Virus record (IMG/VR): IMGVR_UViG_3300014501_000025
Location: 1-52,300 of that record
Length of the DNA stretch: 52,300 nucleotides
Source of the DNA: a virus
Reading direction: 5' to 3' (one strand)
Part shown: positions 2,218-52,300 of the stretch, one piece after another
Position numbering within the stretch: the stretch's first letter is position 1
Layout of the letters: each line of letters begins with the position of its first letter
Made by a program: the position numbers and the translations under genes
The notes under the pieces: generated by a model
Databases searched by the model: none
The model's input: only the letters and a program-made list of their open reading frames with translations
What the model was told of the DNA's origin: nothing

Positions 2218-2333
2218 CGAGCCCGCCCACCGAGTCCCGCCCGGACGCGGCCGGCCAGCCCCCGGAGCGCGGTGAACACCGCGATCGGCAGCCATAGCAA
2301 TGCCATGCCGAGTAGCGTCAGCGGCTTGTTCAC
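2214..2333 (-). CDS. 39-residue membrane peptide with basic tail
   Basis: A GTG start overlaps the stop of the holin-like gene (GTGA), and the stop overlaps the next ATG (ATGA). The sequence has one hydrophobic segment (about residues 5-22, LTLLGMALLWLPIAVF) followed by an Arg-rich tail (GRVRAGLGGRAR). This is a small single-span protein with an inside-positive end. It lies in a run of tightly coupled lysis-region genes, and a holin-accessory role is inferred from context alone. Confidence 0.5.
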   Translation of the reverse strand: MNKPLTLLGMALLWLPIAVFTALRGLAGRVRAGLGGRAR

Positions 2334-2605
2334 AGCCGCGTCCGACTTCCCGCAGCCGGCGCCGGGGTCGGGACGATGGGCTTGGCGACGTTCGGGATCA
2401 GGTACGTGACGAGCGCGAGGACGAGGCCCGACCCGGCGATCGTCAGGGACAGCGTGTCGATCTTGCCCGCGAACACGCTGTTGACAGCCGCGACGACGAC
2501 CGCAAGCGTGGCGGGGACGATCGCCTTCGCGAACGGCGACAACGGGCCGAGGATCGATGCCAGGGCCGTAAGCAGCTGGGTGAGGACTCCCTCTTCGGTC
2601 TGCAT
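2330..2605 (-). CDS. Holin-like membrane protein (internal start)
   Basis: A 91-residue protein read from an ATG at 2605 that is preceded by a good ribosome site (GAAGGGAG). It has two hydrophobic segments: about residues 24-46 (FAKAIVPATLAVVVAAVNSVF) and about 54-72 (LTIAGSGLVLALVTYLIPN). A short Pro/Ala-rich, basic C-terminus follows. Two helices of this size next to a lysin suggest a class II-like holin. It shares reading frame and stop with the upstream papain-like hydrolase, with no stop codon between them, so it may be made both as a free holin by internal initiation and as the C-terminal part of a fusion. Confidence 0.65.
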   Translation of the reverse strand: MQTEEGVLTQLLTALASILGPLSPFAKAIVPATLAVVVAAVNSVFAGKIDTLSLTIAGSGLVLALVTYLIPNVAKPIVPTPAPAAGSRTRL

Positions 2606-3184
2606 GATGGTGGGCTCCCTTCGAGAGCTTTGGAGTGAGGCTTGAAGTGAGACTGAGGCTGGACTTGAGGTCGAGGCATAGAACGAGAAAAGCTCCTGCG
2701 GACTGATCGAAGCGGCGTCGACCGGGTAGATCACCCAGCCGCGCACGAGCGCTTCCGCGCACAGCGACGAGCAGATTTGTGTGCCTTCGACGCCGAACCA
2801 CAGTCCGCGGCCGGGCGTCAGGAATCGCAACGCAATCCCGAGATCGGTCAGCCAGCCGTACTCGTCGCCGACGCACGACCGCGCGAACGCGACTGCCTGC
2901 GCCGCGTCATCGCCGGTGAGCCCGGTCCGGACGATCCAGTACTCGATGCCGCGATATGCCGTCAGGGGTGCGCGGGCCACGCCGCGGGTCAGCGCCTCGA
3001 TGGTGCTGCTGGGCGTGTCGCAGAACGCGGCGTGTGACACGTCGGCGTGACGTAGCCGCAGTCGCTCGCCGAGCCGGATCACCCACGGGACGAACCCTCG
3101 GCGGTGGCAGAGGAGAATGTCGCCGGGCATCACCCCGGTGGCATCCTGGCCGGCCGGGACGTGTTCCATCCGGGCGGGGGTCAC
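2330..3184 (-). CDS. Permuted papain-like (YiiX-type) hydrolase fused in frame to holin-like domain
   Basis: The start is a GTG that overlaps the previous stop (GTGA). The 284-residue product opens with PGDILLCHRR (about residues 19-28), then carries a histidine region (LRHADVSHAAFCD). YRGIEYWIVR and a Cys-containing TQICSSLCAEAL follow at about 144-155. This order, with His before Cys, matches the permuted NlpC/P60 or YiiX hydrolases that cut peptide or acyl bonds in the cell wall. From about residue 194 the frame runs without a stop into the holin-like protein. The linker contains a ribosome site, so the fusion may be only partly translated. A role in wall degradation or lysis is inferred. 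Confidence 0.65.
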   Translation of the reverse strand: MTPARMEHVPAGQDATGVMPGDILLCHRRGFVPWVIRLGERLRLRHADVSHAAFCDTPSSTIEALTRGVARAPLTAYRGIEYWIVRTGLTGDDAAQAVAFARSCVGDEYGWLTDLGIALRFLTPGRGLWFGVEGTQICSSLCAEALVRGWVIYPVDAASISPQELFSFYASTSSPASVSLQASLQSSRREPTIMQTEEGVLTQLLTALASILGPLSPFAKAIVPATLAVVVAAVNSVFAGKIDTLSLTIAGSGLVLALVTYLIPNVAKPIVPTPAPAAGSRTRL

Positions 3185-3447
3185 GTCTCGCGACTGAGTA
3201 GCGGCTCCGGGATGAGGCCCACCAGCGGGAACGCCGGAAAGCCCGACTGGGGTCTGACGTCGAGCCGCGCGCCATCGTAGGTCAGCCATGCCGTCATCGG
3301 CCGTTTCCGGGAGCCGAGATACAGGATCGAATCGGGGTTGACCCGCACGACCTGCGTGACGGTGATCCCGCGCTGGCGCAGCAGCATCGCGGCGTTGTGG
3401 TGCACGCCCGTCTCAACCCGCGCGGGCGGCTCCGACAGCAAGCCCAT
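3181..3447 (-). CDS. Conserved-looking small protein, function unknown
   Basis: An 88-residue protein with a clear ribosome site (AGGAG) 6 bases before the ATG. It is predicted to be mostly strands (VTQVVRVNPDSILYLGS, then TAWLTYDGARLDV). It lies between two papain-like proteins and overlaps the next gene by GTGA, so it is translated with the lysis cluster. No family is recognised. Confidence 0.6.
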   Translation of the reverse strand: MGLLSEPPARVETGVHHNAAMLLRQRGITVTQVVRVNPDSILYLGSRKRPMTAWLTYDGARLDVRPQSGFPAFPLVGLIPEPLLSRET

Positions 3448-4863: not shown

Positions 4864-5052
4864 TCACTGCGTCGGGACTGCCAGCACGACGGCCGTGTAG
4901 CCCTCGGTCATGTCCGCCCCGGCGTTGAGCTTCGCGGCCTCGGCATCGGCGACGGCCTGCAACGCCGGCAGGTCGGTGCCCGTCGCGAGCGCGCGCTGGT
5001 CGAGAACCATCCCCTGCTGGACGAGTGCGACGTAGGTGATCTGGGCGGTCAT
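4864..5052 (-). CDS. 62-residue hypothetical protein
   Basis: It starts at the ATG overlapping the previous stop (ATGA). It is a small alpha/beta domain (MTAQITYVALVQQG at the start, TAVVLAVPTQ at the end) with a helical, Ala-rich centre. The size and layout resemble the 60-residue domain at 4303-4485 (strand, helix, strand ending in a VLxVP pattern), so the two may be distant paralogues. No function can be assigned. Confidence 0.5.
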   Translation of the reverse strand: MTAQITYVALVQQGMVLDQRALATGTDLPALQAVADAEAAKLNAGADMTEGYTAVVLAVPTQ

Positions 5053-5279
5053 GCGTAGTCGGTCCCTTCTGGCTCGGAGTCGCGGTAGAGCGGCTGGATG
5101 CCGGCGGCCTCGAGCGCGCGGACGTAGCCGAGGACGTAGGCGAGCGGGTGCTCGGTCGCGTCGCCGCGGACGGGCGCGATGCAGTAGGACCGCTCGCTGG
5201 TGTGCGGGCCCTGCCAGCCGTCGAGGAACCGGGCGGCGGTCGCCGCGCGGAGCATCGCCCGGATCTCCCGGTCGGTCAT
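5049..5279 (-). CDS. 76-residue hypothetical protein
   Basis: The start is taken at the ATG overlapping the upstream stop (ATGA). An earlier in-frame ATG exists at 5318, inside the upstream gene. The sequence has a helix with several Arg and Ala residues, a central aromatic patch (FLDGWQGPH), a strand (ERSYCIAPV) and a helix (AYVLGYVRALEAAG). No family is recognised. It is part of the coupled chain 4864-5554. Confidence 0.5.
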   Translation of the reverse strand: MTDREIRAMLRAATAARFLDGWQGPHTSERSYCIAPVRGDATEHPLAYVLGYVRALEAAGIQPLYRDSEPEGTDYA

Positions 5280-5554
5280 ACCGACCTCCAGACGCCGCGC
5301 TTGAGGTAGCCATGCCATCCGTCAGGTGCGTCGTAGATAGACGGGCTGACCGTGATCGTCCCGTCCTCGTGCTCGGTGATCGTGTGCGTTGAGACGCGGC
5401 CGACGTGGCCTGCGGGATCGAGGAGCCAGAGGTTCGGCTTCCCGTGGTAGTCCACGAGCATGTACGAGCCCAGCGCGCAGTGTCCGTTGTCGTAGGCGTC
5501 CCAGCCGGGCCCGGGCTCGCCGAAGACGGCATCAGGCAGTCGCTGCCCCTGCAT
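5276..5554 (-). CDS. 92-residue phage protein, DUF6527-like pattern
   Basis: The start is the ATG that overlaps the lysin stop (TGATG). The protein carries strands with the order NLWLLDPAGHVGRVSTHTI, then DGTITVSPSIYD, then GWHGYLKRGVWRSV at the end. A GTITVSPSI strand followed by GWHGYLxxGVW is a pattern seen in small phage proteins of the DUF6527 type. That naming is from memory and only moderately sure. No catalytic role is known for such proteins. It directly follows the lysin. Confidence 0.5.
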   Translation of the reverse strand: MQGQRLPDAVFGEPGPGWDAYDNGHCALGSYMLVDYHGKPNLWLLDPAGHVGRVSTHTITEHEDGTITVSPSIYDAPDGWHGYLKRGVWRSV

Positions 5555-6603
5555 CAATTCGTCGCCTTGACGTGCGCGGCCGCGCTGGTGAAGTACGACG
5601 CTCGTCCAACGAACACCGCGCAGTCCCTCTGCGCGTACGCGGTGCGGCTGAGCGCGAGCGCCCGCCGACGGCTGACGGCGTTGACCTTCGGGTGCTCGCG
5701 AAGCTGCGTCGAGAACCAGATGGCGCGCTGTGACAGCACCTGGCAGCCCCTGGCAGTGGATGCCCGCTCGGTCGATGCGGCGGCGCGCTGGTCGGACGCC
5801 ACGGTGCGCTTCGCGGCTGCGCACGCCGACTTCGAGATGCGGTGCGTGAAGCAGACCGGCAGCAGAGGTGCGGGCTTCGCGAACAGGCCGTAGTCCACGC
5901 TCTCGTCCGACGCGCCGATCCCGGGAACCGACGCCGACTCGGTGAACTGCCAGGCTTCGACAGGCCTGAAGAACGGCTGCAGCACCGAGGCGTACTGCGC
6001 CTGCCACAGCGGCAGGCCGGCGCTCGAGCCGCCCGGCCACGTGCCCGGCGACGTGTACACGGCGTGCGCGAGCGAACGCAGACAGCCGGCGTACGCGCTG
6101 GTGCCCGGGACTTCGATGTCGAGCACGAGCGGCATCCCCGCGGGAACGTGCCGGCGGATTGCGGCCGCCTCGGCTGAGCAGCCGACGGGGCGAACGAACC
6201 AGTAGGCCTGCACCTGAAGCCCGGCCGCGCGCGCCCCCGCGACGTGCGAGGCGTAGGTCGGGTCCGCAGCGGCGCCCTCGCCAGCCTTGACCACGACGGC
6301 GAAGATCCCCGAGGCCTTCACCGCGCGCCAGTTCACGGACGGCTGCCAATCGGACACGTCGACGAACCGGCGCCCAGCCGGGAAGGCGGTCCGCGGCGTG
6401 ATCCCCACGGCCGGCGCGGGGAGGCTGCAGCCCATGAAGCTGTTGCCCGGAATGCACCGCGACGTAGCGGATGGGCCCGTGACGGCCGTCAGCGTGGTGG
6501 AGTGGTGGCTGACCGTCGTGGCGGCGTGGTGGCTCGAGCCGCCGCAGCCGGCGAGCGCGAGCGCGCACGCGGCAGCGACGCCGAGAAGGCGCTTGGGATG
6601 CAT
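5554..6603 (-). CDS. GH25-family lysozyme (endolysin) with lipoprotein signal
   Basis: A 349-residue protein with a GGAGG ribosome site 5 bases before the ATG. The N-terminus is a lipoprotein signal with lipobox LAGC (Cys20), then a Ser/Thr/His-rich linker. The catalytic domain (about residues 78-250) follows GH25: FVDVSDWQ at 80-87, VVKAGEG at 104-110, the DIE acid pair at 162-164, and AWQFTES near the end. This family cleaves the beta-1,4 bond between MurNAc and GlcNAc. The C-terminal 100 residues are basic and contain four Cys, possibly a wall-binding module. An endolysin with a lipobox should be exported by Sec and tethered outside, so it would not need a large holin hole. Confidence 0.85.
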   Translation of the reverse strand: MHPKRLLGVAAACALALAGCGGSSHHAATTVSHHSTTLTAVTGPSATSRCIPGNSFMGCSLPAPAVGITPRTAFPAGRRFVDVSDWQPSVNWRAVKASGIFAVVVKAGEGAAADPTYASHVAGARAAGLQVQAYWFVRPVGCSAEAAAIRRHVPAGMPLVLDIEVPGTSAYAGCLRSLAHAVYTSPGTWPGGSSAGLPLWQAQYASVLQPFFRPVEAWQFTESASVPGIGASDESVDYGLFAKPAPLLPVCFTHRISKSACAAAKRTVASDQRAAASTERASTARGCQVLSQRAIWFSTQLREHPKVNAVSRRRALALSRTAYAQRDCAVFVGRASYFTSAAAHVKATN

Positions 6604-43445: not shown

Positions 43446-44948
43446 CTAGCCGAAGTCGCTGGTGCTGTACCGCCGTGTGCGTACCGTCTTCGGCGCCGGG
43501 CCGGCCGAGATCGTTACCGGCCCCGCGGCGGGCCAGACGTTCGCGAGGCCATAGCCGGCGGCGTCGTGGAAGTGCTCGTGGAACCCGTCTTTTTGGAACG
43601 ACTCCCCGCGGATCCGCTCGCCGGTCGGAGCGCGCTTGGACTCCCACTGCGCCTGCTCCATGGCGTCGGCGAGGCGAGGGCACCGCTGACAATCGATAAG
43701 CAGTCGGCTGTCCCGCAGCAGCTGCTTGACGAGGTCGACGCGGTCGCTCGGGACCGAGGGTTCGATCATCCGCAGGTCGGCTATCCCGTGGCGTCGCAGG
43801 GTGATGTGATCGGTCTCGGTCCCCGACTGGCTGGTGCGCGCCTTGCCAGCCGGGTCGACGCCAGCTGGGCACGCGCCGCTCTCAAGCCCGTAGAGAGCGT
43901 CGGCGTGAGCGATCTGCGCCGCGAACTCCTCTGTGGTCAGCTCAGTGCAGTGCAGCTCACCGAAGATGTGCGCCAGGCGGTCGGCCTGGATCTCCATCCA
44001 GTAGCAGACCGCGTGGTGATAGCCGAAGTCGATACCGCGCCACACCGGCCACTGCGGCTCCCGCTTCCATGGTGCGTGATGCTCTGAGCGGTCAAACTCG
44101 CTGAACACCGCCTCGTCAGCGAGCTGGAACGCGTCTAGTGCTTTCTCGGGGTGCTCCTGCTTGAACCGTCGCAGGTCGGGATATTTCTTTGACTCTCTGC
44201 GCAGCCACGCGTCATCGCGTCGCGGGTGTGCGCTGGACGGGATGAATATCGGCCAGTACCCGTTCGGGGTTTCCGCGCCGGGCTGCGCGCCGGCCCACAG
44301 GCGTGCGTAGTAGTTCGCGGTGCCTTTCGCGGTGCTGATCGCGATGATGGTCCCGCCGCCGGCGATGATCGCGAGGATCGCGGTGAACGTCTCGACGGCC
44401 CACTTCCACTTCGAGACTTCGTCGGCGATGATCAGCTGTGCGGTGAGGCCCGAGCCGGTGTCCTCGGTCGACGGGAGCGAGATGACTCTGGACCCGTTCG
44501 CGAAGACGACCATCGGCATCTTCACGTCGTTGGTGTCCTGGATGATCCGGGTCTGCAACTCCGGCGGGAGGTGCTTGTGCATGAACCGGACGCGGTCCAG
44601 CAGCTCGATCGCCGCGCCGAGATTGCGGCTCAGGATCAGGACCGTCTGACCGGGATTGCAGTTCCCAAGCCATAGCCCGTACGCGAGGCTGACCCACGAC
44701 AAGCCGAGCTGGCGGGCCTTGAGCACCACGACGTTTGACTGCTCGCGAATGTCGGTGAGGACTGTCCGCTGGAAGTCCCACAGTCGGAACCGTTCCGGAT
44801 CGCCACCGGCGGCGGGGACCAGCCAGATGAACTGGTCGATGAAGAACTCGGGGTCTTCGGCCGCGCGGTCGTACTCGGTGCGAGTGCGTTTCGGGGGGTC
44901 CAGGAGATCAGCAGCCCGCGAGAACGGGTCGCGGACGACGACGACCAT
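43446..44948 (-). CDS. Terminase large subunit
   Basis: The ATG at 44948 has GGGAGG 5 bases upstream (an in-frame TTG at 44960 is less likely), giving 500 residues. The ATPase half has the KARQLGLS Walker A form at 77-84, LIIADE Walker B at about 172-177 and the coupling motif STAKG. The nuclease half has the acidic GIDFGYHH at about 305-312 and later acids. It cuts and pumps DNA into the head. It is first in the structural operon, so its promoter region is the divergent stretch 44949-45041. Confidence 0.85.
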   Translation of the reverse strand: MVVVVRDPFSRAADLLDPPKRTRTEYDRAAEDPEFFIDQFIWLVPAAGGDPERFRLWDFQRTVLTDIREQSNVVVLKARQLGLSWVSLAYGLWLGNCNPGQTVLILSRNLGAAIELLDRVRFMHKHLPPELQTRIIQDTNDVKMPMVVFANGSRVISLPSTEDTGSGLTAQLIIADEVSKWKWAVETFTAILAIIAGGGTIIAISTAKGTANYYARLWAGAQPGAETPNGYWPIFIPSSAHPRRDDAWLRRESKKYPDLRRFKQEHPEKALDAFQLADEAVFSEFDRSEHHAPWKREPQWPVWRGIDFGYHHAVCYWMEIQADRLAHIFGELHCTELTTEEFAAQIAHADALYGLESGACPAGVDPAGKARTSQSGTETDHITLRRHGIADLRMIEPSVPSDRVDLVKQLLRDSRLLIDCQRCPRLADAMEQAQWESKRAPTGERIRGESFQKDGFHEHFHDAAGYGLANVWPAAGPVTISAGPAPKTVRTRRYSTSDFG

Positions 44949-44976: not shown

Positions 44977-45006
44977 TTGACAAACTGTATAGCCCCCTAT
45001 ACAGTT
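44977..45006 (+). promoter_or_regulatory. Promoter with overlapping perfect palindromic operator
   Basis: TTGACA at 44977-44982 is a consensus -35. TATACA at 44998-45003 is a likely -10 with 15 bases between. Bases 44983-44992 (AACTGTATAG) and 44997-45006 (CTATACAGTT) form a perfect 10-bp inverted repeat with a CCCC spacer, lying across the spacer and -10. A dimeric repressor bound here would block the promoter. The binder is unknown; the HTH protein at 45901-46098 or the XRE-like protein at 102-587 are candidates. The likely start of transcription is near 45010. Confidence 0.75.
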
Positions 45007-45041
45007 GGCGCATGGAGTCAACCACCGCCAAGGAGCACCGC

Positions 45042-45656
45042 ATGAGCACGCTGAGCGTCGACGACGTCACCCGCTGGGCCGATGACGGCGGCTACTGCCC
45101 GCCCGAGCGCGAAGCCAACGCGCCGGCGAAGTTGACCTACCGCGAGCGTCGCGCCCGCAAGGCCGAGCGTCTGCGTGGCTGGGCCGAGAAGCGCGAAGCC
45201 AAGTCGGTCGCCGCCTACGAGCGCTCAAGCGAGATGGCGAGCGTCATCCCGTTCGGGCAGCCCATCCTCGTGGGGCACTACAGCGAGGGCTCAGACCGGC
45301 GCTACCGCGACCGGATCGGCCGCGTCATGGACCAGTCATGCGAGCACGCCGCGAAGGCGACATCGATGCGGTCTCGCGCGGACAACATCGAGGCGCAGAC
45401 CGCTCACGCCATCTACTCCGACGACCCCGACGCCACCGACCGGCTGCGCGACAGGATCGCCCGGATGGAGGAGCTGCGCGACGGGATCAAGGCGCGCAAC
45501 GCCACGTTCCGCAAGGATCACCACGCCGAGCTCAAGACCATGACCGCCTATCAGCGCGACATGGCGATGCCGCACCGCAGCTATGAGCTGACCAATCTGT
45601 CCGGCAACCTCTCGAGACTCCGCAAGCGGCTCGCGAGCCTGGAGGCGCAGCGATGA
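45042..45656 (+). CDS. DUF3560-family protein
   Basis: The ATG at 45042 (204 residues) is preceded by CCAAGGAG with good spacing, better than the ATG at 45012. The sequence is charged and helical with the DUF3560 core around AYERSSEMASVIPFGQPILV (about 57-76) and GHYSEGSDRRYRDRIGRVMD. A coiled coil with AKATSMRSRADNIEAQTAHA follows. The C-terminus has LTNLSGNLSRLRKRLASLEA. DUF3560 proteins are found on plasmids and phages, with unknown role. Here it is the first gene of a short operator-controlled cassette lying opposite to the structural genes. Confidence 0.75.
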   Translation: MSTLSVDDVTRWADDGGYCPPEREANAPAKLTYRERRARKAERLRGWAEKREAKSVAAYERSSEMASVIPFGQPILVGHYSEGSDRRYRDRIGRVMDQSCEHAAKATSMRSRADNIEAQTAHAIYSDDPDATDRLRDRIARMEELRDGIKARNATFRKDHHAELKTMTAYQRDMAMPHRSYELTNLSGNLSRLRKRLASLEAQR

Positions 45657-45904
45657 CCCTGATCCTCTTCTTCATATTCCTGATGCGCATGACGTTCTCA
45701 GTGGTGGTCGTGCTGATCGCCATGGCGCTGATGCTTGCCGCCTGCCTAGTCGGCATGGTGGGTGCGGTCCTCGACGCGGGATCGACCGCGCACGGCGCCG
45801 GATGGAAGGCCACCTCCCGGTCGCTGATGAGCGCCGCGGGCCGAGTCGCGAAAACGGCGGACAACCATCGCCGGTGGGTGCTGCCGAACAAGCCGGCGGC
45901 ATGA
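45653..45904 (+). CDS. Membrane protein of the DUF3560 cassette
   Basis: It overlaps the first gene by 4 bases (ATGA) and has 83 residues. A long hydrophobic run (LILFFIFLMRMTFSVVVVLI, then AMALMLAACLVGMVGAVL) forms one or two spans. A basic soluble tail (WKATSRSLMSAAGRVAKTA) follows. It is the second gene in the cassette and also overlaps the third gene (ATGA). Its role is unknown, but the coupling with a cytoplasmic partner suggests a functional unit at the membrane. Confidence 0.65.
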   Translation: MTLILFFIFLMRMTFSVVVVLIAMALMLAACLVGMVGAVLDAGSTAHGAGWKATSRSLMSAAGRVAKTADNHRRWVLPNKPAA

Positions 45905-46098
45905 CCATCACCAGCGAACAGCTCAAGAAGGCCGAGGCCGCCCACCGGGCGGCCTTCCGGCGTTCCGAGCAGAAACGCGAGGCGCGCAACGAGCTCGTGC
46001 GCCAGGCACTCGCGCAAGGCTGGAAGCCGGCGCACATCGCGCGGGAGATGGGCATCACGCGCGCCCGCGTCGGTCAGATCGCGAAGGAGAACCCCTAG
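45901..46098 (+). CDS. 65-residue HTH protein (cassette regulator candidate)
   Basis: It starts with ATG overlapping the previous stop (ATGA). The N-terminal half is a charged helix (LKKAEAAHRAAFRRSEQKRE), and the C-terminal half is a helix-turn-helix (ELVRQALAQGWKPAHIAREM, then GITRARVGQIAKENP). HTH proteins of this size act as repressors, so it may bind the palindrome at 44983-45006. The gene is convergent with the small-terminase-like gene, overlapping by 4 bases. Confidence 0.65.
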   Translation: MTITSEQLKKAEAAHRAAFRRSEQKREARNELVRQALAQGWKPAHIAREMGITRARVGQIAKENP

Positions 46099-46718
46099 CC
46101 CGTGCTGGCGACCAGGCGCAGATGCTTCGCAGCGACGAGCATCGCGGTCTGCTGACGCGCCGCATCAAGCTTGAGATCGGGGTCGCCGAAGATCGCGCGT
46201 AGCAGCGTCGCGACCGTCTGAGCGGTCTGCTCCGCCAGGCCAAGGCGGCGCGCTTCGACACCGGCACGCGCGGCGTACGCAGCGACCGTGTTCAGGTGCT
46301 TGCGCTCCTCGACCCACATCACCCACAGCACGTGCGGTTTCGCGTCACCGGTCGTCTCGCCACTCGCGTGGCGGGTCTGGACGTACAGGCCACCCGGCTC
46401 GAGCTTGAGCTCGTTCACCATGTGACCAAGCACGTGCACCGCGCATCGGGTGCGCCACAGCTCTTCCGCGAGCACGTCACGCGGGTCGACCTCGCCGAGC
46501 TCGTCCCCGTCCACGAGCGCGAGCTTCCCGATCGCCTGACGCGCGATCTCCTTCTGGGCCGCCTGTTTGTGGCTCTCGGTGTTGCCGCCGTGCCGATAGC
46601 AGCAACCCGCGCCGCGGTGGTCCGTCCGCATCCCCGCGACGTTCTGACACGTGACGCCGGGTGGCTTGTTGGGGAGTTGCGCGCCGCACAACGTCTTGCC
46701 GGGGCCAGATTTGGGCAC
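46095..46718 (-). CDS. Small terminase-like protein
   Basis: The chosen GTG at 46718 gives 207 residues. The front part holds LCGAQLPNKPPGVTCQNVAG and AGCCYRHGGNTESHKQA, the Cys-rich HGG-type motif common in actinophage proteins near terminase. A charged helical middle (ARQAIGKLALVDGDELGEVD, DVLAEELWRTRCAVHVLGHM) follows. Near the end lies LGLAEQTAQTVATLLRAI. It probably recognises DNA for packaging. It is separated from the large terminase by the rightward DUF3560 cassette. Confidence 0.65.
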   Translation of the reverse strand: MPKSGPGKTLCGAQLPNKPPGVTCQNVAGMRTDHRGAGCCYRHGGNTESHKQAAQKEIARQAIGKLALVDGDELGEVDPRDVLAEELWRTRCAVHVLGHMVNELKLEPGGLYVQTRHASGETTGDAKPHVLWVMWVEERKHLNTVAAYAARAGVEARRLGLAEQTAQTVATLLRAIFGDPDLKLDAARQQTAMLVAAKHLRLVASTG

Positions 46719-46731
46719 GTCTAGTCGCCTT

Positions 46732-47295
46732 TCATCGGATCCGGTTGGCTTGGACTTCGGCGACGAGTCGTTCCACCAAGTCGCGGCGCGGTCGACGGCG
46801 GCGCGGCACGCCAGCCTGGTCAAGCAATGGGCCGAATGCTTGGGTCATCGCGGCGCGTGCGGCGATGATCTCGTCGTCGTCGCGGGCGTAGAGGAGATCA
46901 TCGAACGCGTGGAGGTACGCGCGCTCGGTTGCGGCGAGTCCACGCTTCTGGTCCTGGCGGACGGCGTGCGCGAGGCGATGGAGCGCGGAGCTGACGGCCC
47001 TGAGGTCGCCGGCAGTGGCTGGCGGCTCGTCGACTGAGGTGTCGTCGACGGTGGCCCAGCCCTCTTTGAGGCAGCGGATGACGGCCTGTAGCGATCCGGT
47101 GACGCCGAGTCGGCCGTACGCGCTATGGAGCTGGTGGCGCACGGTGCTGTGGCTGCGGCCCGTTGCCTGCGCGATCTGCTGGTAGGTCATTCCCCCGGCC
47201 AGCCCGCGGATGGCGGATAGCTCGTGCGGGGTGAGGGGGCAGGCGTCGGGGACGCGGTCGCGCATCGTCCGGGCGGCGCGCAGGGTTGCGGTCAT
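46732..47295 (-). CDS. LuxR-type HTH regulator
   Basis: A 187-residue protein. Residues about 20-80 form a GerE-type HTH: CPLTPHELSAIRGLAGGMTY, then QQIAQATGRSHSTVRHQLHS, AYGRLGVTGSLQAVIRCL. The rest is helical and charged with no receiver domain, so it is regulated in some other way. The ATG overlaps the stop of the small zinc protein by one base. A role in late-gene activation is plausible but not shown. Confidence 0.7.
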   Translation of the reverse strand: MTATLRAARTMRDRVPDACPLTPHELSAIRGLAGGMTYQQIAQATGRSHSTVRHQLHSAYGRLGVTGSLQAVIRCLKEGWATVDDTSVDEPPATAGDLRAVSSALHRLAHAVRQDQKRGLAATERAYLHAFDDLLYARDDDEIIAARAAMTQAFGPLLDQAGVPRRRRPRRDLVERLVAEVQANRIR

Positions 47296-47944: not shown

Positions 47945-48130
47945 TCAGCTGTCCTTCTCGTGGCCGTGTGTGTCGAGTCGACAGAGCGGCGGAACAGCGC
48001 TGCGTTTCGCATCTGATGGCTTCGGCGGCGGCTTGGTCGGGCGTGGGCCTGACGGGTGCGGCGAGAAGCCGCCACGCTTCTCGATCGCTTGCGGCCACGC
48101 TGGCTCAGCCAGCCTACGACGACGCCTCAC
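47945..48130 (-). CDS. 61-residue Arg/Pro-rich protein with LDTHGHEK tail
   Basis: The GTG overlaps the previous stop (GTGA), like other real genes here. The product has a basic start (VRRRRRLAEPAWPQAIEKRG) and ends RLDTHGHEKDS. The end is similar to that of the preceding gene (GLDAHGHEKTDT), so this may be a partial duplication of its C-terminus. Bases 47876-47944 downstream hold no convincing gene. Confidence 0.35.
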   Translation of the reverse strand: MRRRRRLAEPAWPQAIEKRGGFSPHPSGPRPTKPPPKPSDAKRSAVPPLCRLDTHGHEKDS

Positions 48131-48774
48131 GTGTCCGTCTTCTCGTGGCCGTGGGCGTCCAGGCCCGCGAGCGCCCGGGCGCGGCCGACGGTGCGCGGCG
48201 AACCGGCGATATCACTGCCGAGCTTATCGACGACGGCCTGGTTGCTCAGCCCACGATTGGAGACGTGGCAGATCAGCCGGTCCTTCTCGATGCCGAGCAT
48301 CTGACCGGTACTCGCGACGGTGCCGAGGCCTTCCGCTTCGTCAAGCAGATCGTGGACCCGCTCGAGGCGCGACCTGATCACAGCCCAGTGCTCACGCCAT
48401 CGCGGATCGTCGTCGAGCAGCTGCTGGGTTGGCGGGCCGGCTGGGTCGCTGCCGCCGCGGCCGCGTTCGGTGCTGCCCGCCGACACGGTGCTGATCGTGA
48501 CCTCACGCTCGAGGGCTTCGCGGTGGAGATTGAGCAGATCGGCGCTCGAGCGGTGCTGCCGCCGCTCGGCCGACAGTTCGCGTTGAACGCCGGCGAACTT
48601 CTCTTCGCGCTTACGGGCCCGGCGTTCTTCCCAATCAAGCGGGACGCGCTCGACCTCGCGCTCGGGGTCCAGCCCGGCCGGCGACCGGCCCGGTTTGCAG
48701 ATGCTGTCGTGGTCGGCTGGCTTGCCGCACTGGCAGAGCCGCACATGGCGGATCTTGAGGTCGTCGTCGGTCAA
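48127..48774 (-). CDS. 215-residue HTH-like phage protein
   Basis: The start is a TTG that overlaps the previous stop (TTGA). It has LCQCGKPADHDSICKPGRSP near the N-terminus with three Cys and a His, possibly zinc-binding. A long helical segment (DWEERRARKREEKFAGVQRE) leads to a C-terminal HTH-like part (DRLICHVSNRGLSNQAVVDK, then AGSPRTVGRARALAGL). It is probably a DNA-binding regulator. The similar end of the downstream gene suggests duplication. Confidence 0.55.
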   Translation of the reverse strand: MTDDDLKIRHVRLCQCGKPADHDSICKPGRSPAGLDPEREVERVPLDWEERRARKREEKFAGVQRELSAERRQHRSSADLLNLHREALEREVTISTVSAGSTERGRGGSDPAGPPTQQLLDDDPRWREHWAVIRSRLERVHDLLDEAEGLGTVASTGQMLGIEKDRLICHVSNRGLSNQAVVDKLGSDIAGSPRTVGRARALAGLDAHGHEKTDT

Positions 48775-49444: not shown

Positions 49445-49858
49445 TCACGTCAGAAAGACGCCGCGGAGGGGTTCCCAGCTGGTCTCCAGCGAGCAGAGCT
49501 GCTCGTCGGTGAGTTGATCCACCTCCGTCAGAATGCATTGCGAGAACCATTCACCGTGGCGACGAGAAGTCGAGAAGCGGCGATGAAGACTGCGCTCGAC
49601 CGGCAGCGGCCAGTCGCAGGGCACGAACCGGTGTAGATCAAGCGGAACCGGCGAGCTTCCCCGCAGGCTCACCAAGCGCGATTCCAAGCCAGCGGTCCAG
49701 CTCGGCTTGACGATCCCGATCTTCACGAGGTCTGCGCCAGTGACAAAGTAGACGCCACCTCGCGACTGCACGCGCGGTGTCCGGCCCATCTCGTGCTCGC
49801 GGGCGCTGCGCCGAGCGATCTCGTCCGTCGCCCGCTGAGTGCGGGGCTTAGCCCTCAT
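49445..49858 (-). CDS. GIY-YIG nuclease-like protein (T5orf172 type)
   Basis: A 137-residue protein. A charged N-terminus (MRAKPRTQRATDEIARRSAR) leads to the GIY-YIG core: GGVYFVTGADLVKIGIVKPS (about 34-53, strand with the VYF..VKIG motif), SRLVSLRGSSPVPLDLHRFV, and RSLHRRFSTSRRHGEWFSQC (about 89-108, with the GEWF motif). These features fit the T5orf172 or Mug113-like subgroup of GIY-YIG nucleases. Its target is not known. It lies directly next to the broken integrase. Confidence 0.75.
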   Translation of the reverse strand: MRAKPRTQRATDEIARRSAREHEMGRTPRVQSRGGVYFVTGADLVKIGIVKPSWTAGLESRLVSLRGSSPVPLDLHRFVPCDWPLPVERSLHRRFSTSRRHGEWFSQCILTEVDQLTDEQLCSLETSWEPLRGVFLT

Positions 49859-49870
49859 GCGTCGTCGCCG

Positions 49871-50199
49871 TCAGCTAGCACGACGCGCCCTGACTCTCTC
49901 GCGCAGCACCGCAGCATTGACGTGCGTGTAGATCTCGGTCGTGCGGACATCCGAGTGCTCCGTCACACCTACGCGACCCAGCCTTCTGCGCTGACCGGCT
50001 GACCCATCTCCCAGACGTACTGGCGCCACACCATGCGCCCGGTCAGGGTGCAGAACAGCAGCGGCGTGTGGGTCTTGCGCGCGTAGGTGCGACGCACGTC
50101 GCGCCAGCGGCCGATCCACTGCAGCGTTTCGGGTTCGAGGTCGAGCACCGCGACGGTCTTGCGGCCGGCGTCGGTGCCCGCGAGCCTGTGACCGCCCTT
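49871..50199 (-). pseudogene. int: Broken tyrosine integrase with locally inverted box II segment
   Basis: On the minus strand, 50199-49972 reads KGGHRLAGTDAGRKTVAVLD, then LEPETLQWIGRWRDVRRTYA and LLFCTLTGRMVWRQYVWEM, typical of a tyrosine recombinase middle part, and stops at 49969. The C-terminal end HSDVRTTEIYTHVN (with the nucleophile Tyr) lies at 49871-49957 in another frame. The expected LRHTYAT box is missing from the minus strand but is read on the plus strand at 49958-49978 (VLRHTYATQ). So a short internal piece is inverted and neighbouring sequence is lost. The gene cannot make an active integrase. Confidence 0.8.
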
Positions 50200-50232
50200 C
50201 TACGGGGGTTCGCGGACAGTGTCATGTGTATT

Positions 50233-50312
50233 GCTAGACCCTCGGTACGGAGTGTCTAGCGATACGGGGGGAGGGTGAGGGAAGAGGCAGAATGACTGTA
50301 GAACTGTCTAGC
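50233..50312. repeat. Three GTCTAGC-type repeats in the int-proximal gap
   Basis: GCTAGAC at 50233-50239 is an inverted copy of GTCTAGC at 50254-50260, and GTCTAGC recurs at 50306-50312. The direct pair share the wider context TGTCTAGCG. The stretch 50226-50355 has no gene. Repeats here may be arm-type sites of the integrase or sites for a regulator. Confidence 0.5.
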
Positions 50313-50355
50313 GTATTCACTACTCATCCCGGCACCCCGAGCACCAGCAGCGGGC

Positions 50356-51196: not shown

Positions 51197-51513
51197 TGCT
51201 CGCCTCCGTCGAAGACGTGGAAGACCAGTAGGCCGCCACCCTTGTCCAGCTTGAACGTGCCGACGTACTCAGATTCCTCGGCCGCTGGCGGCAACGGGAC
51301 ACCTGTTGGCTGAGCGAAGACCTTCCGCGACACCTTCGGCGCGGCGGCGTCGACGAGTGCCCAGACGTACGCTGTGCCTTCGGGTGCGCCGACGTGCAGC
51401 AGTTCGGCGCCCTGCTCGATGTCAATGAAGATCGACCAGGAGCGCAGCTCGTACTTGTAGACAACGAGGCCGCACGGACGGGCATGGTGGGTCTGGGCTG
51501 TGAACGCGATCAC
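51193..51513 (-). CDS. DUF7352-like actinophage protein
   Basis: The GTG start overlaps the previous stop (GTGA), giving 106 residues. Features are LVVYKYELRSWSIFIDIEQG, AELLHVGAPEGTAYVWALVD, AAAPKVSRKVFAQPTGVPLP, and EYVGTFKLDKGGGLLVFHVF. The order K-Y-E-L, L-H-V-G, W-A-L-V-D, then Y-V-G-T and F-H-x-F is typical of the DUF7352 family that is widespread in actinobacterial phages. It is probably a small beta protein with unknown role. Confidence 0.7.
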   Translation of the reverse strand: MIAFTAQTHHARPCGLVVYKYELRSWSIFIDIEQGAELLHVGAPEGTAYVWALVDAAAPKVSRKVFAQPTGVPLPPAAEESEYVGTFKLDKGGGLLVFHVFDGGEQ

Positions 51514-52040
51514 GCAAGCTCCAGCTGTCCGGGGATCGCGGACAAGCGGTCGACGGAGATGGTTGGACGCGGCGCTAGGGCGGGTGACCACGCTGCTGCC
51601 CGGATCTCCCAGCGGATGCGATCGCTCAACTCGTACTTCGCGGCGTCACGCGGGCGGCTCTTGCAGTACCACTCGCGGCCCTTCGTCCAGCCCTCAGCAG
51701 CCCAGCCGGCGGCACGAACACTGGCGCCCGACTCGCTGTCCTTCGTGTAGGTGATGCCGCGCAAGTAGCCGAAGTCCTTGATGAGCCGCCAGCACGCGCC
51801 GTAGAGGAACGAGCAGGCGTTGGGATGGCCGATCGTGCAGACGCGCGTGACCTCGAGCGTCCATCCGTCGACGTTGCCGCGCGCCTTCGGGTGCTCCACG
51901 ATCGCCACGCCGACGAATTCGTCATCGGCCAGAGCACCGAGAGAGAACTTGTGCTGCAACACGGGCTCGCTGTGCCGATGATGACGCTCGACGTAGGCGT
52001 TCGCCTCATCCTTGTCGATCTGGACGACCGAAAGGCTCAT
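51510..52040 (-). CDS. XF1762-like (GNAT-like) phage protein
   Basis: The start is the ATG at 52040, giving 176 residues. The opening LSVVQIDKDEANAYVERHHR and HSEPVLQHKFSLGALADDEF match XF1762 proteins. VGVAIVEHPKARGNVDGWTL, EVTRVCTIGHPNACSFLYGA and GITYTKDSESGASVRAAGWA follow. The shape is like an acetyltransferase. It is common in phages and may modify a small molecule or protein. The stop is coupled to the next gene. Confidence 0.75.
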   Translation of the reverse strand: MSLSVVQIDKDEANAYVERHHRHSEPVLQHKFSLGALADDEFVGVAIVEHPKARGNVDGWTLEVTRVCTIGHPNACSFLYGACWRLIKDFGYLRGITYTKDSESGASVRAAGWAAEGWTKGREWYCKSRPRDAAKYELSDRIRWEIRAAAWSPALAPRPTISVDRLSAIPGQLELA

Positions 52041-52162
52041 CGCGAGCACCCGTGCCCGATGACGTAGCCCTGAACGAGCCAGCCAAGCAGGACGATCGCT
52101 CCGACCGCGCCGACACTCCCGGCGACCGACCACGCCAGCACCTTGAGCCGCCATCTATCCAT
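52037..52162 (-). CDS. 41-residue membrane protein
   Basis: The ATG at 52162 gives MDRWRLKVLAWSVAGSVGAV, then GAIVLLGWLVQGYVIGHGCS. It has a basic start and one hydrophobic helix. The stop overlaps the next ATG (ATGA). It is the first gene of the leftward early block, so the promoter lies in the short stretch 52163-52259. Confidence 0.55.
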   Translation of the reverse strand: MDRWRLKVLAWSVAGSVGAVGAIVLLGWLVQGYVIGHGCSR

Positions 52163-52259: not shown

Positions 52260-52300
52260 GGCGGGAACAAAGCGCGGGTTCAATTCCCGCCGTCTCCACT
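52260..52300 (+). other. Attachment-site half: 3' end of a tmRNA/tRNA gene
   Basis: Bases 52274-52278 (GCGGG) and 52286-52290 (CCCGC) form a perfect T-stem with the loop TTCAATT. They are followed by the 7-base acceptor strand CGTCTCC and A52298. No D-arm or anticodon part lies upstream. The order is that of a tmRNA 3' end (GGTTCAATTCCC, Ala-type A73), though a tRNA is not ruled out. GGCGGGAA (52260-52267) is inverted to TTCCCGCC (52284-52291), which may serve integrase binding. This is the expected remnant at one end of an element integrated in ssrA. Confidence 0.7.

Follow-up and report, generated by a model that had tools for sequence, protein, structure and literature searches.

A DUF3560 cassette next to a phage terminase gene, a candidate mobile cargo operon with acr-aca-like layout

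In acr-aca operons a strong promoter of the operon's own precedes the cargo, the gene for a small helix-turn-helix (HTH) protein comes last, and an inverted repeat lies in the core promoter. Each of the ten Aca families tested represses its own promoter via such an inverted repeat, and Aca4, a protein of 67 aa, is listed with the families HTH_23 and KORA (PMC9410906). ArdK, a repressor of plasmid R388, acts on five promoters that serve the early stages of invading a new host; the ardC and ssb promoters are among them (PMC9723621).

DUF3560 proteins occur in at least 5000 plasmid records and in many contigs of phages; on an F-type plasmid the gene is ydbA, with the antirestriction gene yubI on one side and ssb/psiA on the other. 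The DUF3560 gene of pO157 is induced about 5-fold by ciprofloxacin, alongside an antirestriction gene and ssb (PMC11125564), and plasmid leading regions are enriched in anti-defence genes, according to a study whose main text does not mention DUF3560 (PMC11541004). In those passages of the literature searched that name the domain, no function is stated. A compact operon in which it is joined by a putative repressor and operator offers a small testable unit for studying the role of the domain.

We analysed such an operon in a phage, probably of an uncultured high-GC bacterium. The window, i.e. the whole stretch of DNA analysed, corresponds to one IMG/VR virus record in full, 52,300 bases long, with a GC content of about 68% in the region around the cassette. 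The closest relative of the cassette that we found is in another viral contig, L010 (IMGVR_UViG_3300005614_000088), with 52% identity in DUF3560. The features of the cassette and its flanks are as follows.

43446..44948, - strand: terL, terminase large subunit (flank); phrog_2, E 3e-33; 74% identical to terL of contig L002
44977..45005, + strand: sigma-70-type promoter TTGACA-17-TACAGT (TTGACA 44977-44982, TACAGT 45000-45005); consensus scan; GCCCCTTGACA in common with the L010 promoter
44983..45006, no strand: perfect 10-4-10 palindrome AACTGTATAG-CCCC-CTATACAGTT, putative operator over the spacer and -10; dyad search
45030..45044, + strand: AAGGAG, probable ribosome-binding site of gene 1, and its ATG at 45042; sequence read directly
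45042..45656, + strand: gene 1, a 204-aa DUF3560 protein (ORF open from 45012); PF12083, E 1e-33; phrog_6744, E 2e-20; AF2 pLDDT 88
45653..45904, + strand: gene 2, small membrane protein, 83 aa; hydropathy; homologue search empty
45901..46098, + strand: gene 3, HTH protein, 65 aa; phrog_686, E 1e-7; AF2 pLDDT 85
46095..46823, - strand: probable terminase small subunit, terS (flank); phrog_3678, E 4e-15, an unnamed family; 37% to the L010 gene that adjoins its terL

The rightward three-gene unit (44977-46098) sits between the leftward terL and the leftward gene at 46095-46823, and the flanking genes are all on the minus strand. Both of its gene junctions are ATGA overlaps, and all three reading frames are supported by codon-position GC (third-position GC of 0.91, 0.86 and 0.91 for genes 1, 2 and 3), so that the original prediction of three ATGA-coupled genes opposite to the flanking phage genes was borne out. 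Gene 1 probably starts at 45042 rather than at the first ATG (45012), because AAGGAG lies a few bases ahead of 45042; the longest-ORF start is probably 10 codons too early. The unit had also been placed between the two terminase genes. The gene for the large subunit has its own ribosome-binding site (GGGAGG); the assignment of 46095-46823 as the small subunit draws on where the gene lies and on a profile match that is very weak (E 0.008), and is better backed by the L010 homologue adjoining the L010 terL. Gene 3 and 46095-46823 share a stop region, and the insert therefore fills the gap exactly.

The promoter at 44977-45005 is the only sigma-70-like match in the 7.1 kb scanned (43.3-50.4 kb); shuffled sequence gives 0.7 matches, so the consensus match is weak by itself. 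Chance did not yield a palindrome of this kind. The record contains five perfect dyads with arms of at least 10, four of which are GC-rich, 44983-45006 being the only AT-rich one (70% AT), and Markov-1 simulations (n=20) gave 1.9 such dyads per record and no AT-rich ones. Of about 98 promoter-like sites with an exact TTGACA, counted in the window and all fetched loci minus those picked for the dyad, no other has a perfect 10+10 dyad; imperfect 8+8 dyads have a background of roughly 7% at such sites. The predicted arrangement, a TTGACA promoter with its spacer and -10 under a perfect 10-4-10 palindrome, was thus recovered, as was the lack of a second copy in the window: the palindrome occurs once in the record, where no further copy within 3 mismatches was found and none was expected, and a 20-base match search found no exact copy in other viral contigs. 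An Rfam search gave no match.

A role as terminator was ruled out: the palindrome is not followed by a T run, and the transcription start point lies downstream of it. Its 16-base core was found in 14 stretches of viral contigs, mostly in GC-poor phages and in 10 of the 14 cases at the promoter of an NrdB-like gene; we judged these unrelated. The promoter of the NrdB-like ribonucleotide reductase gene in six GC-poor phages (L106, L107, L110, L111, L103 and L108) has the form TTGACA-TACAGCC-GGCTGTATAG-N4-CTATACAG, an element of two overlapping dyads that is apparently a conserved operator.

Gene 3, the putative source of a repressor for this site, encodes a long N-terminal helix (residues 5-38) followed by an HTH (43-63 of 65 residues). 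It matches phrog_686, "HTH DNA binding protein", and has weak Pfam matches to KORA (5.7e-4) and HTH_23 (1.9e-3), i.e. the same two families as Aca4, below cut-off, a likeness of families and length. The HTH part weakly resembles those of KorA/TrfB and ArdK (RP4 KorA, R388 ArdK): the nearest solved chains are ArdK of R388 (PDB 7bca/7bbq, weak at E 0.03), and the fold search gave nothing but general HTH domains, at E above 0.1, among them those of resolvases, KorB and ArdK. The binding site of KorA is an inverted repeat at the -10, which the cassette palindrome also covers. However, gene 3 scores 20.5 bits against the KORA profile, whose cut-off is 26.7, and whereas KorA and ArdK have a C-terminal dimerisation domain, the gene 3 HTH ends at residue 63 of 65 with no such domain after it, the long helix being N-terminal instead; both points place it outside the KorA/TrfB family proper.

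The layout as a whole is that of an acr-aca operon, with its own strong promoter, cargo first, a small HTH gene last in a short operon, and an inverted repeat (44983-45006) between the -35 and the end of the -10. The cargo differs, as it consists of DUF3560 and a membrane protein with no known acr gene, and repression is here putative. No named Acr family was matched by the cassette in Pfam, PHROGs, NCBIfam or PADLOC, and apart from the sub-cut-off Pfam likeness of gene 3 to Aca4 its proteins matched no known Aca or Sie family. With this layout in mind we consider it reasonably likely, on the analysis as it stands, that the gene 3 product represses the cassette promoter, i.e. that the operon is autoregulated. 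The parts of the cassette are all of known kinds; their combination is undescribed in the literature searched.

The relative in L010 agrees with the window in gene order: behind a TTGACA promoter come DUF3560, a small ORF and a related HTH. The two DUF3560 proteins have a common N-terminal extension, although that of L010 has a Cys-rich C-terminal extension, unlike gene 1, and the two HTH proteins are related with a phmmer E of 4e-4 (39% over aligned columns). The middle ORF of L010 is unrelated to gene 2. The predicted three-gene linkage therefore holds as an order found elsewhere, in this one relative, but without the membrane protein. Both promoters contain GCCCCTTGACA plus an adjoining 24-bp dyad, and the dyad sequences differ; the L010 dyad is imperfect and, although at the equivalent place, is by itself no better than the background of about 7%. 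The sequence of the palindrome is not conserved; the difference would be in keeping with a repressor and operator diverging as a pair.

The cassette also has a different position in the two phages. The L010 copy (4965-6379) has the packaging operon on one side and a tyrosine integrase on the other, and the L010 terS and terL are separated by a 228-base gap without a cassette, while the start of the L002 terL is overlapped by 29 nt by the upstream reading frame. The cassette of the window is therefore an insert, with its own promoter, between genes adjacent in relatives that are distant (terS 37%) or cut short; L010 is itself a distantly related phage, with homologues of 48127-48774 at 38% and of 102-587 at 43%. 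Its position by the integrase in L010, and its absence between the terS and terL of that phage, argue for mobile cargo (a moron), and cargo that moved would be the simplest account of the two loci. The predicted isolated, separately promoted moron gains support in this way from its own promoter and from its moved position in L010.

Gene 1 scores 116.5 bits against PF12083 (curated cut-off 27.2), which settles its DUF3560 membership as predicted. Its predicted fold is all-alpha; PDB gave no match at E 0.001, and a viral structure library gave mainly DUF3560-type proteins with weak E values. It shares its Pfam domain, and the motifs GQPILVGHHSE and SDDPDA, with plasmid DUF3560 proteins (F-plasmid YdbA and PromA proteins annotated "ArdC"), from which it differs in its phage carrier, in having at most about 42% identity to them, and in consisting of the core only, the plasmid C-terminal part ENRVMFIF...SPxRGAWVRQL being missing. 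A single-protein scan for close relatives gave nothing useful in viral contigs and one weak Bacteroidota match in genome contigs; an alignment scan of the viral contigs gave 80 DUF3560 loci. In the resulting tree gene 1 belongs to a clade with good support whose 15 members are mostly GC-rich; it is nearest to L010, L011, L012 and L016, and among these only L010 carries an HTH gene downstream whose relationship to gene 3 is clear. Gene 2 is hydrophobic over residues ~1-40 (hydropathy up to 2.96 over 19 residues) with a basic C-terminal tail, and has no homologues in phages, plasmids or the fetched loci.

Taken as a whole, the cassette is best read as a horizontally moving cargo operon with acr-aca-type autoregulation and a counter-defence or establishment cargo, a reading to which we give a little less than an even chance. 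On entry or induction, before repressor builds up, the strong TTGACA promoter would give a burst of the DUF3560 and membrane proteins. The KorA/Aca4-like gene 3 protein would then bind the 24-bp palindrome as a dimer and shut the promoter, as its family and the position and symmetry of the site suggest. Repression would keep later expression low and would limit rightward transcription against the leftward packaging genes, and the cargo would help the phage genome to establish against host defence. This last step is suggested by plasmid context, because plasmid DUF3560 sits among early-entry antirestriction, ssb and SOS-inhibition genes; as a statement about the cargo, counter-defence is more tentative. 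If the reading is true, it would extend the Aca-style switch to cargo outside the known anti-CRISPRs. A broader form, which we regard as rather doubtful, is that DUF3560 is a widespread anti-defence protein of plasmids (F YdbA) and phages, carried here in a mobile, Aca-style self-repressed operon whose HTH and operator have diverged while the layout was kept.

DUF3560 could instead be an ordinary early gene for DNA metabolism or establishment, with the cassette a displaced fragment of an early region that kept its promoter and a small regulator and has no defence role. Most viral DUF3560 genes do lie inside larger, early-type operons (43 of 71 have same-strand neighbours on both sides), next to assorted genes of DNA metabolism (methylases, ParB, RadC, helicases, primase), and a neighbour-family count found no constant partner, from which it follows that such a role is possible. 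The all-alpha fold without a PDB match suits this account too, as does a phage-plasmid in which DUF3560 adjoins ref and Ead/Ea22-like genes. However, the cassette of the window stands by itself and runs against the direction of its neighbours, under a promoter and palindrome of its own, and the company of antirestriction, ssb and SOS-inhibition genes on plasmids also points away from it; we consider it somewhat unlikely. The original prediction had favoured superinfection exclusion or immunity, i.e. lysogenic conversion in which a prophage-expressed membrane protein excludes superinfecting phages and the HTH protein tunes its level. The moron position, the own promoter and the small membrane protein with its basic tail are consistent with this, and separately expressed accessory loci are common in prophages (PMC7067206). 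However, the conserved parts of the cassette are DUF3560 and the HTH protein, whereas gene 2 is without homologues and missing from L010, and PADLOC and PHROGs gave no match in the cassette to a superinfection-exclusion or defence family. The idea found no direct support and appears improbable; counter-defence or establishment accords better with the acr-aca-like layout and with the company that DUF3560 keeps on plasmids.

The palindrome might also be the target not of gene 3 but of a regulator from the host or of a master repressor of the phage, e.g. as an SOS-type box. Its CTGT...ACAG ends are superficially like the E. coli LexA box, and the response of the pO157 gene to ciprofloxacin (PMC11125564) would suit such control. 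However, the spacing is CTGT-N12-ACAG and not N8, which rules out a LexA/SOS box, neither CTGT-N8-ACAG nor GAAC-N4-GTTC occurs anywhere in the record, and there is no second copy of the palindrome near other phage genes, so that we think regulation of this kind very unlikely.

Several further features of the record were seen. At 49876-50195 (-) lies a decayed tyrosine integrase. Two parts of it resemble the L010 integrase (tblastn E 3e-6), namely the C-terminal piece TEHSDVRTTEIYTHVNAAVLRERVRARRAS and, upstream, a second piece that is shifted; it has no catalytic core, and there is no integrase or resolvase domain elsewhere in the record. It is possible that the element relies on another integrase or represents a defective prophage. 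A gene with a GIY-YIG type T5orf172/MUG113 domain, at 49445-49858 (-), is near the spot equivalent to the L010 cassette site. The record end, 52274-52300 (GCGGGTTCAATTCCCGCCGTCTCCACT), resembles the 3' end of a tRNA or tmRNA (T arm, acceptor) and is probably an attachment-site boundary; ARAGORN found no whole tRNA in the record. A Mom-like DNA modification protein, a known type of anti-restriction function, is encoded at 51510-52154 (-; phrog_1384, E 5e-32), with homologues near DUF3560 in L017 and L088, and 2330-3289 (-) has a profile match (E 4e-14) to phrog_1128, a family of phage morons labelled enoyl-CoA hydratase/carnitine racemase-like. The L010 homologue of 102-587 has repressor-type profile matches, which makes 102-587 a candidate phage repressor gene, and GTCTAG motifs at about 50235-50315 (within 50200-50320) could be operators for its product.
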